Source: Candidatus Gastranaerophilales bacterium
Lineage (GTDB): Bacteria; Cyanobacteriota; Vampirovibrionia; Gastranaerophilales; Gastranaerophilaceae
Direction of reading: 5' to 3'
DNA: 64,000 nucleotides
NCBI GenBank assembly: GCA_017402995.1
Contig: JAFQOV010000022.1
Span: forward strand, 1-64,000
Positions 2,899 through 49,675 of the stretch are shown in pieces (positions within the stretch are counted from its first letter, which is position 1; each line of letters opens with the position of its first letter). Below the pieces are notes generated by a model. The model ran no database searches, had not been told where the DNA came from, and saw only the letters and a program-made list of their open reading frames with translations. A program made the position numbers and the translations under genes.

Positions 2899-4863
<1,965 letters not shown>

Positions 4864-4969
4864 AATTACCTCTAAAAAATAAACATACAAATCTATTAGA
4901 CCACGCTTTAATTTTTTTTGCAAATTTAAAAATCCATCTACTTCATTATGAGTAAATTTTTGTTAATGT

Positions 4970-4999
4970 TTGCATTTAATTTTTCTTTTCCTATATAAT
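4970..4999 (+). promoter_or_regulatory. Predicted promoter
   Basis: TTGCAT (4970-4975), an 18-base spacer, then TATAAT (4994-4999), about 30 bases before the start at 5029. A GGGGAG ribosome site lies between, in contrast to the leaderless genes nearby. Confidence 0.6.
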
Positions 5000-5028
5000 A
5001 AATACAGAAGTTCTATGGGGAGTTATTA

Positions 5029-5484
5029 ATGTTTAAAGGAGACGTTTTAAATCATACTCAGTCAAGCGCTAAAAAAGCGAATAATGACTATTATTCAAAC
5101 ATTAATACTGCTGTTGCACTTGGAAAATTGAACGTTCCAATCAAACACAAACAGCTTGCTTCAAGCTATGTTTTAATTAAAAAAATCTTTGGTTACGCTG
5201 CAGCTTCAATCCCAATCACAAACGCAGATAGAGCTACTTTATCAAGAAACGGTTTTTCAACATTAGAAAATACTTCAATTGCTCAAGTAAATAGACAAAT
5301 TGAACAATTGAAAGCTTGGTCAAATGGCGGAGATATCTTGTTATCTGCATATGCTAGCGAATTATTTGAAATCAGAATTAAAGAATTAAAATATTTAAGA
5401 TTAACTATGCTTTCTGAAAGAAGCGTCGAATTTAAAGACGGCTGGAAAGCTTTTGAAAAATATGTCGAATATATTGCAGGCTAA
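5029..5484 (+). CDS. Hypothetical protein, soluble, unknown family
   Basis: This 151-residue protein has no signal peptide, membrane segment or recognised motif. It looks mainly alpha-helical (many A, L, K, E stretches; QVNRQIEQLKAW and ELFEIRIKELKYLRL helices). GGGGAG eight bases before the ATG and a consensus promoter upstream support the start. It stands alone between ndk and the exported protein at 5577. Function unknown. Confidence 0.75.
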   Translation: MFKGDVLNHTQSSAKKANNDYYSNINTAVALGKLNVPIKHKQLASSYVLIKKIFGYAAASIPITNADRATLSRNGFSTLENTSIAQVNRQIEQLKAWSNGGDILLSAYASELFEIRIKELKYLRLTMLSERSVEFKDGWKAFEKYVEYIAG

Positions 5485-5510
5485 AATTTTAAACCATTAA
5501 AAAATGTTAA

Positions 5511-5526
5511 GTCGGATAGTAGCCTT
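5511..5526 (+). promoter_or_regulatory. GTCGGnTAGTnGCCTT motif (copy 1)
   Basis: GTCGGATAGTAGCCTT lies 50 bases before the exported-protein gene at 5577. It matches a site upstream of flagellin (23501-23516) at 14 of 16 positions. It sits between an inverted pair ACCATTAAA/TTTAATGGT. It could be a special sigma-factor box or an RNA element; the mechanism is not known. Confidence 0.4.
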
Positions 5527-5576
5527 AATATTGAATTTTTGCAATTTAATGGTATTTTTTAGTTAAGGAGGCTGAA

Positions 5577-5870
5577 ATGACAAAACTATTTTCAATCTTA
5601 TTTTTAGGCTTATTATTTTTAAACACACAATTAACATTTGCAGCAGAAACTGCTGAAAATAAAGCAAAAAACATACAAGAATATTCAGAAGAAGATTTTG
5701 ACTTTACAAGCAAATCAAACTATATCACAGACGAACAACTTCAAGCAGCACAAGAAATAGATGAAATTGAAGAAAAATCAACATTTGGCACTAAAATTAT
5801 CAACTCTAGCCATTTTTCTTCTAGCACCGCTACAAAAACATATATCCCAATCAACAAAGTTGGCAAATAA
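5577..5870 (+). CDS. Small exported protein of unknown function
   Basis: This 97-residue protein starts with a clear signal peptide (positive MTK, hydrophobic core, TFAA-E cleavage near residue 23). An acidic, probably disordered mature part follows, with a polar tail. The ribosome site AAGGAGG is near-perfect. Its stop ends one base before the convergent HD-GYP gene. An upstream motif shared with flagellin hints at joint regulation with motility, which is inference. I do not recognise the family. Confidence 0.75.
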   Translation: MTKLFSILFLGLLFLNTQLTFAAETAENKAKNIQEYSEEDFDFTSKSNYITDEQLQAAQEIDEIEEKSTFGTKIINSSHFSSSTATKTYIPINKVGK

Positions 5871-48019: not shown

Positions 48020-48221
48020 ATTGATTATTATTTGAATTTTATACTTCAAGGATTTTGGACTTCTTTAGTTTCTTTTTTATAAAAGACTTCACCCTTGCTT
48101 GTTTTTATTTTCAAGTCTTCCAGACTTCTTCGTTTTTCTTTTTATCTACAAAGGGCTTTCGCCCTTGAATATTTTTTTAAAAGCTAAAACTTTTGTTCAA
48201 TTTTTCAAGTCTTTCAGACTT
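48020..48221. repeat. Noncoding repeat-rich stretch with hairpins
   Basis: No supported gene. A 32-base string beginning TCAAGTCTTCCAGACTTCTT occurs at 48111-48142 and again at 48205-48236 (one difference, 94-base spacing). Each copy holds the hairpin AAGTCT-TCC-AGACTT. Between them lies AAGGGC-TTTC-GCCCTT (48151-48166). The DNA is strongly T-biased on the plus strand. Confidence 0.75.
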
Positions 48222-48672
48222 CTTCGTTTTTCTTTTCTTTTTTCAATCGCCGATCAAAGAAAAGAAAAACGAAGCAAAAAGAAAAGAAAACACGGCTCGG
48301 TTTCATGTAGGTTTCTAGTAACGCACTAAATTCAACGTCAATGCTTACGGGAACTCGCTAGCGCTCAGACAACCCTCACGCATTGCCGTTTCATTAAGTG
48401 CGGGTGCTTTTCCATAAGCGAGAAACTTAACGACATACAAAATTAAAAACAATATAACCTTTTTTAAATTTAAAATCGCAATCAAGGTGAACGTGAGCGA
48501 TTTTGAGTACGAGCGATAGCGAGAAATGGCTCTCAAAATCGCGAGGTGTGAACAACTTGGAGATTTTAAATTTAAAAAAGAAGAAACTAAGAATTTAGCC
48601 AAGCCGTGTTTTCTCTTTTCGGTTCACTTTTCTCTTTTTCGTCGGCGTTTGAGAAAAAAGAGAAAAGTGAAC
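48222..48672. mobile_element. Nested inverted-repeat element bounded by two inverted hairpins (MITE-like candidate)
   Basis: The left hairpin is a perfect 19-bp stem, CTTCGTTTTTCTTTTCTTT and its complement (48222-48240/48256-48274). The right hairpin is GTTCACTTTTCTCTTTTT(T)C and its complement (48622-48640/48653-48672). Their loops contain CGCCGA and TCGGCG, which are reverse complements. Inside are GAAAACACGGCT/AGCCGTGTTTTC (to 48297 and from 48602), a 23-base imperfect pair around 48322-48401, a perfect 19-bp pair (48459-48477/48562-48580) and an 11-bp pair (48497-48507/48532-48542). It contains no convincing gene. It is a non-autonomous element or a large structured RNA; I cannot tell which. 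Confidence 0.5.
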
Positions 48673-48718
48673 AAAAATGTTTAAATATAAAAAATGACTA
48701 TTTTTTTCAAACTTGCGC

Positions 48719-48746
48719 TTGCAAAAAAAAAAAAAAACGATATAAT
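48719..48746 (+). promoter_or_regulatory. Promoter with poly-A spacer, predicted phase-variable
   Basis: TTGCAA (48719-48724) and TATAAT (48741-48746) are 16 bases apart. The spacer is nearly all one homopolymer: 15 A at 48723-48737. Slipped-strand gain or loss of A would change the -35/-10 spacing. AAAGGA and the ATG of the prepilin-collar gene follow. Confidence 0.6.
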
Positions 48747-48788
48747 CTTTTCGAAACACAAAAAACATTACTAAACACAAAGGATAAT

Positions 48789-49145
48789 ATGAAAAAAATA
48801 GTTTATTTGAGAGCATTCTCATTAGTTGAGATGCTAATTACGCTTGTCGTGGTTTCGGTACTTTTATCTGCTTTTGTACCTGTGATTACAAAGAAAATGA
48901 CCAAAAACATTGAAGTTAAATCTTCTGTTGTTTCTGGTTCAGTTCCTGTTGGCACAGTTGTGATGTGGCTTGAGGATAGCGCACCTGAGGGGTGGTTACT
49001 TTGTAATGGCGCAACAATTCCAAGCGGAAGTCAATATGACGAACTTAGAGCATTTTTAGATGATACTAAGACGCCTGATATGAGAGGACTTATTGTCAAA
49101 GGTGCGACAGCAACAGAAAACACAAACGGAAGGGTTAGGGATTAA
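48789..49145 (+). CDS. Type IV prepilin-like protein fused to phage tail-collar domain
   Basis: This 118-residue protein starts as a class III (type IV pilin) signal: positive MKKIVYLRA, cut before F10, then SLVEML with E14 at the +5 position and a hydrophobic helix to about 35. Residues 50-105 match the phage tail-collar pattern: VPVGTVVMWLEDSAPEGWLLCNG, then TPDMRGLIVKG. It ends soon after, shorter than typical collar domains. It is probably a minor pilin or tip adhesin; no other pilus gene is in the window. AAAGGA precedes ATG 48789; the frame is open upstream but that part is repeat-derived. The following gene lies one base on. Confidence 0.8.
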   Translation: MKKIVYLRAFSLVEMLITLVVVSVLLSAFVPVITKKMTKNIEVKSSVVSGSVPVGTVVMWLEDSAPEGWLLCNGATIPSGSQYDELRAFLDDTKTPDMRGLIVKGATATENTNGRVRD

Positions 49146-49146
49146 G

Positions 49147-49596
49147 ATGAAAAAAATATTAATATTATTTGTGGGGTTAATTTTAGGGTGTAATTTGGCA
49201 AGTGCTAGGAGTGTGAATTGTTGGGAAGAATATACCACTTACAATACAGCACATGATTCATCATTCATGGCAACTGCGCTTGGAAGTGATGTAACGATTG
49301 TTAATACAGGGATTGAATATAACGGAATCGCAGAACTATATGAACGTGTTAGTAGTGATTTTTACGTAGGAGCACTAACAGACTACAGGGTTACTACTCC
49401 ACCATATATAAGGAATGGGAACTATTACTTGGGAGTTCCGTACTCTAGCATAGACAATTACAGTTATACATCTGGTACAACCTTGTATAGTGCCGGTAAA
49501 GTCTACCACTACTGCATAGTTGATGAAGGCTCTTCTGGCGGAGGTGGTGGTGGTGCAACAGGCTCTGTCAATTTCATCATCAAAGCAACATCATAA
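49147..49596 (+). CDS. Secreted partner protein with tail-fibre-like C-terminus
   Basis: This 149-residue protein has a signal peptide (MKKILILFVGLILGCNLASA), a Tyr/Ser/Thr-rich beta-type body with two Cys, a Gly run (SSGGGGGG) and the end SVNFIIKATS. That end resembles the terminal strand of phage tail-collar proteins (family recall: NYIIKA-type ends). One interpretation is that the collar C-terminus moved to a second secreted protein. It is co-transcribed with the prepilin-collar gene (GGGATTAAG site, one-base gap). Confidence 0.7.
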   Translation: MKKILILFVGLILGCNLASARSVNCWEEYTTYNTAHDSSFMATALGSDVTIVNTGIEYNGIAELYERVSSDFYVGALTDYRVTTPPYIRNGNYYLGVPYSSIDNYSYTSGTTLYSAGKVYHYCIVDEGSSGGGGGGATGSVNFIIKATS

Positions 49597-49649: not shown

Positions 49650-49675
49650 GGGGGCATTGCCCCCTTTTCTTTTTA
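49650..49675 (+). terminator. Terminator of the prepilin-collar cassette
   Basis: GGGGGCATTGCCCCC (49650-49664) is followed by TTTTCTTTTT. Confidence 0.9.

Follow-up and report, generated by a model that had tools for sequence, protein, structure and literature searches.

The window analysed here, a stretch of 64,000 nucleotides (64 kb), is part of contig C21 of a draft genome of 1.7 Mb in 26 contigs, with a G+C content of 32%. It holds two open reading frames on the forward strand, A and B, which lie one base apart, as first described, and are probably co-transcribed as a two-gene unit (Table 1). The neighbours of the pair are housekeeping genes, and the surroundings of a phage tail gene are absent. 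On the 5′ side, intergenic repeats run from 48099 to 48680 (CTTCAAGTCTT.CAGACTTCTTCGTTTTTCTTTT plus inverted copies), and similar repeats lie near other copies of the unit, which we refer to as cassettes. These repeats were considered as part of the cassette and rejected, since the DNA common to the cassettes starts only at ∼48713.

Table 1. Features of the A–B cassette, in positions of the window
Feature	Position	Strand	Basis or remark
−35 element TTGCAA; its last two A's open the poly(A) tract	48719–48724	+	TTGCAA or TTGTCA likewise placed in 10 poly(A) cassettes
Poly(A)15 in the −35/−10 spacer (16 bp), proposed slipped-strand switch	48723–48737	+	
−10 element TATAAT (in CGATATAATC)	48741–48746	+	Sequence
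AAGGA ribosome-binding site of A	48780–48784	+	Sequence; conserved in paralogues
Protein A, minor-pilin-like, collar domain without last strand	48789–49145	+	118 aa; dN/dS 0.06–0.27 among paralogues
Prepilin leader (MKKIVYLRA↓) and hydrophobic N-terminal helix, E at +5	48789–48893	+	Pfam N_methyl, TIGR02532, AF2
Phage tail-collar domain (PF07484), ending in KTPDMRG	48951–49091	+	Pfam/profile matches
Protein B, secreted partner, constant ends, hypervariable middle	49147–49596	+	149 aa; paralogue comparison
Sec signal peptide of B (ends ASA)	49147–49206	+	Sequence; shape conserved across all B paralogues
CWEE motif, opens the constant N-terminal part of B	49219–49230	+	Conserved in paralogues
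Hypervariable region of B, presumed ligand-binding; approximate boundaries	49282–49497	+	Mean paralogue identity 0.19
Gly6 linker	49537–49554	+	Four Gly positions constant across 12 paralogues
SVNFIIKA, proposed donated last strand of A's collar	49564–49587	+	Phage-collar PSSM; tail/collar co-variation
Rho-independent terminator GGGGGCATTGCCCCC-TTTTCTTTTT, closes the A–B unit	49650–49674	+	Sequence

Protein A joins a pilin head to an incomplete phage collar. Its N-terminus displays the class III signal of type IV pilins and pseudopilins, comprising a short basic leader, a G/A↓F site, Glu at +5 and a hydrophobic helix, with the cleavage site reading LRA↓FSLVE (Ala, not Gly, at −1). The head matched Pfam N_methyl at 21.3 bits (cut-off 21.2) and TIGR02532 at 22.7 bits (cut-off 16.3), and AF2 modelled A alone, from a phage-collar alignment, with a helix spanning residues 3–35 (pLDDT 83–96 over residues 1–30). 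The prepilin peptidase site, the +5 Glu and the N-terminal helix of the original prediction were thereby recovered. Against Pfam Collar (PF07484), A scored 36.7 bits (cut-off 24), a cut-off exceeded by all 14 copies in the genome, and the collar profile matched gp12, gp37 and other short-tail-fibre chains in the PDB. The collar had been described as stopping soon after PDMRG, and the match indeed ends at residue 101 of 118, in KTPDMRG, with 17 residues following. Among the C-termini of the A proteins themselves, we found no copy of the [LV]N[YF]IIK strand motif that is a feature of gp12-type proteins. In the AF2 model, the collar is ill-defined and not complete (pTM 0.31); a whole collar fold in A, originally named as evidence against a split collar, did not appear, although this was a weak test. 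A Foldseek search with this model gave no significant match, the top one being T4 gp37 with an E-value of 0.26.

Protein B is built from constant ends around a variable middle. From the N-terminus, it comprises a Sec-type leader (MKKILILFVGLILGCNLASA), CWEE, the variable middle, an invariant Cys, Gly6 and the terminal SVNFIIKATS (ATGSVNFIIKATS), in agreement with the signal peptide, Gly run and NFIIKATS end that were first reported. Cys25, Trp26 and Glu28 are invariant among 12 paralogues, and both CWEE and CWQE are found in a second species of the genus (G015). The middle has a mean identity of just 19% across all paralogue pairs, and conservation within the protein peaks in the tail. Searches of Pfam, PHROG and NCBIfam returned no family match for B, and a PDB search using the B alignment gave chance matches only. 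As a single sequence, B was modelled poorly by AF2 (pLDDT 42), although a terminal strand was drawn at residues 141–148. A lipobox-like LGC in the leader was considered as a lipoprotein signal and set aside, as the Cys is missing in most paralogues.

The genome contains 14 collar domains, every one of them fused to a prepilin head, on a total of 11 contigs, which argues that the pilin–collar fusion of A is not a chance event and bears out the expectation of several paralogous cassettes in one genome. Wherever the contig continues, B follows A (12 of 12 cases) on the same strand, with a gap of 0–18 bases. Two A genes, at the starts of contigs C7 and C8, stop at the contig edge, and a 13th B opens contig C17, with the expected position of its A beyond the contig edge. 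A scan of genome contigs returned generic prepilin heads only. Many contigs stop 200–430 bases short of a cassette, and a check for a tRNA-linked insertion site of the cassettes revealed no pattern.

Among the 383 genomes of the family that were surveyed, the split A–B form is confined to this genome (G000) and to G015, which has two A–B units of the same design. Pilin–collar genes are present in 19 other genomes of the 383, and here they are single-gene homologues of the kind that was originally predicted: 18 are compact and one is long. The compact proteins (loci L039, L210–L224, L226 and L227) are single chains of ∼115 aa that complete their own collar and end in ...LPDLNQIFQxTDTNLKWIIKVKK (...YLPDLNQIFQNTDTNLKWIIKVKK). 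The long one, from G061, is a single chain with a phage-like insert and the end IAMNYIIKY, its N-terminus being cut by the contig end. In two genomes of genus g52, the compact gene (L233:6591–6932 and L234:6533–6880) sits in the same neighbourhood, flanked by a gene for 140–163 aa and a pair of genes for ∼290 aa, which is not a pilus operon.

The C-termini of single-chain phage collar proteins collected from IMG/VR take the form [VTAS][LIV]NYIIK followed by one or two further residues, and those of T4-like gp12 proteins read ISLNYIIKIHY and SLNYIIKVHY. In the structure of T4 gp12, the last strand reportedly packs on the protein's own collar. A position-specific scoring matrix (PSSM) made from 24 phage collar C-termini, excluding any B sequence, was used to rank 345 ORF C-termini, and the top 11 were 11 of the 12 B tails, at 16.2–19.5 bits, with the next ORF at 7.3. 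In those 11 proteins, the best site of the whole protein was the tail, 2–3 residues from the end, while the twelfth tail (c23b, PVVFLIK) scored only 1.3 bits. A matrix built from the compact pilin-collars was less specific than the phage-collar matrix, placing B tails at ranks 2–8 and 10–13 of the 345, and two non-B ORFs ranked among them. The likeness of the B C-terminus to the last strand of collar proteins, proposed at the outset, is thus upheld by the phage-collar ranking. A viral contig collection searched with the A and B alignments contained no relatives, so no phage or prophage of that collection was found with the A–B pair. The collar may have been recruited from phage to pilus, as originally proposed, rather than the reverse.

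Tail and collar also vary together. The collars of the 12 complete units sort into four classes, the B tails sort into the same four, and pairwise identities of collar and tail correlate with r = 0.80 (Mantel p = 0.0002), although with only four collar classes the 12 cassettes are not 12 independent cases. The B N-terminus, which lies between collar and tail on the DNA, correlates with the collar at r = 0.40, or 0.15 (not significant) given the tail, whereas the collar–tail partial correlation is 0.77 when the B N-terminus and the stretch preceding the Gly run are both controlled for. Inside the collar classes, selection on A is purifying (dN/dS 0.06–0.27), while the adjacent B proteins are only 23–51% identical. 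The co-variation is what a tail physically matched to its collar would be expected to show; a neutral alternative, in which recombination swaps only the middle of B between fixed A and tail frames, could also account for the data.

Sequence and co-variation together make a well-supported case that the B tail corresponds to the missing last strand of A's collar, and the division of the collar between the two proteins, as originally predicted, stands to that extent. A quite improbable alternative is that B functions independently of A, with no contact between them, and that its tail is left over from the splitting of a single-chain ancestor gene. The single-chain forms in relatives make a split gene with drifting halves conceivable. 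Against it, B is best conserved in its tail, which keeps to the collar class of A although the intervening sequence recombines, and in two species B follows A in every visible case.

The A–B unit has a good sigma-70-type promoter (TTGCAA, 16 bp, TATAAT), and its spacer holds a run of 15 A's that was absent from the earlier observations. Ten of the 14 units have this promoter in common, as CTTG[TC]C or CTTGC - A(10–21) - CGATATAATC, and four cassettes are without a poly(A) promoter. The spacers of the ten are 16, 20, 16, 11, 15, 16, 15, 19, 16 and 22 bp, the tract lengths being taken from one assembly and differing among paralogues. The genome has exactly ten copies of the string A10CGATATAATC, all in cassette promoters, and the nine runs of 12 or more A's in the 1.7 Mb are all cassette promoter tracts. 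Within the window, the poly(A)15 is the single A/T run of at least nine, compared with 36 expected from dinucleotide composition. In a set of 28 genomes from the genus, one further case of poly(A)10 beside TATAAT was found, in G022, ahead of an unrelated gene.

With a homopolymer between −35 and −10, these ten cassettes have the architecture of promoter-spacer phase variation, and slipped-strand changes in tract length would then switch each unit independently. In the vlp family of Mycoplasma hyorhinis, the same poly(A)-promoter arrangement is a documented on/off switch (PMC10502178). The Vlps resemble the A–B cassettes in being a divergent surface protein family with a homopolymeric A tract in each promoter (PMC10502178), but they are lipoproteins and structurally unrelated, whereas the A–B tract is the proposed switch of a two-protein pilus-tip unit. 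Rather unlikely, in our estimate, is that the tracts are a fixed feature of a duplicated promoter whose length differences reflect drift or assembly error. The cassettes do share upstream DNA, as expected if a common promoter was copied, and in Neisseria the poly(A) promoter tract of nspA tunes expression with no detectable phase variation (PMC6389960). Against a fixed promoter, all runs of 12 or more A's in the 1.7 Mb lie in cassette promoters, the rest of the window is depleted of long runs, and lengths of 13–21 straddle the 16–18 bp optimum in a range of frequent slippage.

The machine that would assemble these pilins lies elsewhere. No pilus ATPase gene was found in the 64 kb window, in line with the original remark that the pair lacks other pilus genes nearby; contig C22 has a cluster of PilB, PilC and secretin-like genes, and contigs C25 and C1 have PilT-like genes, all named from PF00437 matches and from length, order and the ends of the sequences. 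There is a small chance that A and B instead serve another type IV filament machine, such as a T2SS-like pseudopilus or competence pilus, with the collar capturing DNA or a substrate. The prepilin head matches are generic, with ComG-type pilins included below the cut-offs, and the genome has several matches to GspE/PilT-type ATPases, both of which would suit such a filament. Hypervariability such as that of B, and switchable promoters across a family, would however be unusual for uptake or secretion and are typical of surface-exposed recognition proteins.

Our preferred explanation, which we consider probable, is that the cassettes encode phase-variable minor-pilin tips, to which B, a hypervariable adhesin, attaches by supplying A with the last strand of its collar. 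In this scheme, A would enter the membrane like a minor pilin, be cleaved by prepilin peptidase and present a phage-type collar that is without its C-terminal strand. B would be exported by Sec, and its C-terminal strand VN[YF]IIKA, behind the flexible Gly linker, would dock into the collar of A, comparable to the way in which a single-chain collar protein, beyond its receptor-binding insert, brings its C-terminal segment back to the collar. The periplasm, before extrusion, is a more plausible place for this docking than the cell exterior, where the original prediction had the two proteins reassemble. The pilus machine, with its genes elsewhere in the genome, would bring the A–B complex to the surface, where the hypervariable region of B would stay exposed at the tip and bind its target.

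Several known systems come close to this arrangement. T4 gp12 and other phage tail-collar (PF07484) proteins have the collar sequence and the C-terminal strand motif LNYIIK, but both are in one chain on a tail fibre, whereas in A–B the collar is on a prepilin and the last strand is on B. The compact pilin-collars of related genera share the prepilin head, the collar and an end motif, [LI]KWIIK; they differ in being one chain with no insert and no B, present in one copy per genome among the matches found, and the one inspected for its promoter (in G027) has no poly(A) tract there. Strand donation is familiar from chaperone-usher pili, in which donor-strand complementation completes a fold missing one strand with the terminal segment of another protein. 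Those pili have another fold and another export route, and in A–B the strand completion is a proposed one.

The nearest mechanistic parallel is provided by CofB–CofJ of the ETEC CFA/III pilus and TcpB–TcpF of the Vibrio cholerae TCP, in which a trimer of the minor pilin binds its secreted partner through a short terminal peptide (PMC9565799). As in A–B, a minor pilin with an added domain is paired with a separate Sec-exported partner. The added domain of CofB and TcpB is H-type-lectin-like and the partner docks by its N-terminus, whereas A has a collar and the conserved collar-like segment of B is C-terminal. Their genes also occur once, in a type IVb pilus operon, in contrast with 14 dispersed stand-alone cassettes whose machine is on other contigs and for which phase-variable promoters are proposed. 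These systems raise the alternative that the A–B pair is functional but that B is released cargo of the pilus tip rather than a permanent adhesin, with its tail acting as a docking or secretion signal. We regard this as unlikely: the precedent set by CofJ and TcpF, each secreted and retained through a short terminal segment (PMC9565799), and the long Gly linker with its short tail would suit a detachable plug, yet CofJ and TcpF dock by the N-terminus, while the segment of B is C-terminal and has the sequence of a structural collar strand. Hypervariability and switchable promoters, though compatible with a shared cargo, better fit an exposed ligand-binder.

For tips that change their target, the PilV shufflon of IncI plasmids offers a precedent, as its minor-pilin adhesins vary their distal part (PMC9045228). 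There, one gene at one locus has invertible 3′ segments and a recombinase; here, there are 14 complete genes with their own promoters on 11 contigs, and the variable part is on a separate protein. With 14 units, ten of them with putatively switchable promoters, a cell carrying A–B cassettes may have a wardrobe of interchangeable pilus tips. More tentatively, and as something possible rather than probable, the last strand of the split collar could be a universal plug that fits any B with the right tail onto an A of the matching collar class, giving at least 13 hypervariable B tips as independently phase-variable, combinatorial, strand-donated type IV tips. If the preferred explanation is right, the cassettes would link three usually separate things, namely a phage adhesion fold on a pilus, cross-protein strand completion in a type IV filament and random switching of an adhesin family, and such switching of a large adhesin family would be taking place in an uncultured, probably gut-living lineage. 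The conserved tail–collar code makes the interaction testable with two small proteins, and poly(A) switching is testable in existing deep metagenome reads.

The genome has a second route for diversifying pilin-headed proteins. Contig C22 carries a complete diversity-generating retroelement at L258:2080–5638 (G000:C22:36079–39637), with a template repeat at L258:4240–4456, a reverse transcriptase at 4433–5638 on the reverse strand, and a variable region at 2916–3132 inside a pilin-headed gene with an Lcl_C-like segment (WxLPT motif). Template and variable region differ at 20 positions, 19 of them at an A of the template. A retroelement origin for the variability of B was rejected, because the one template repeat found matches the pilin–Lcl_C gene and no B gene. 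A second reverse-transcriptase match (PF00078, 46.8 bits) lies at G000:C1:31955–32461 (L257, L259), with no A-biased repeat pair as clear as that on C22. Large pilin-headed proteins of 400–1000 aa, with Lcl_C and ephrin-receptor-like cysteine-rich domains, are numerous in the genus and distributed chromosome-wide (for example L083, L085, L088, L034 and L035), with 38 matches at E ≤ 1e-8 in G009.
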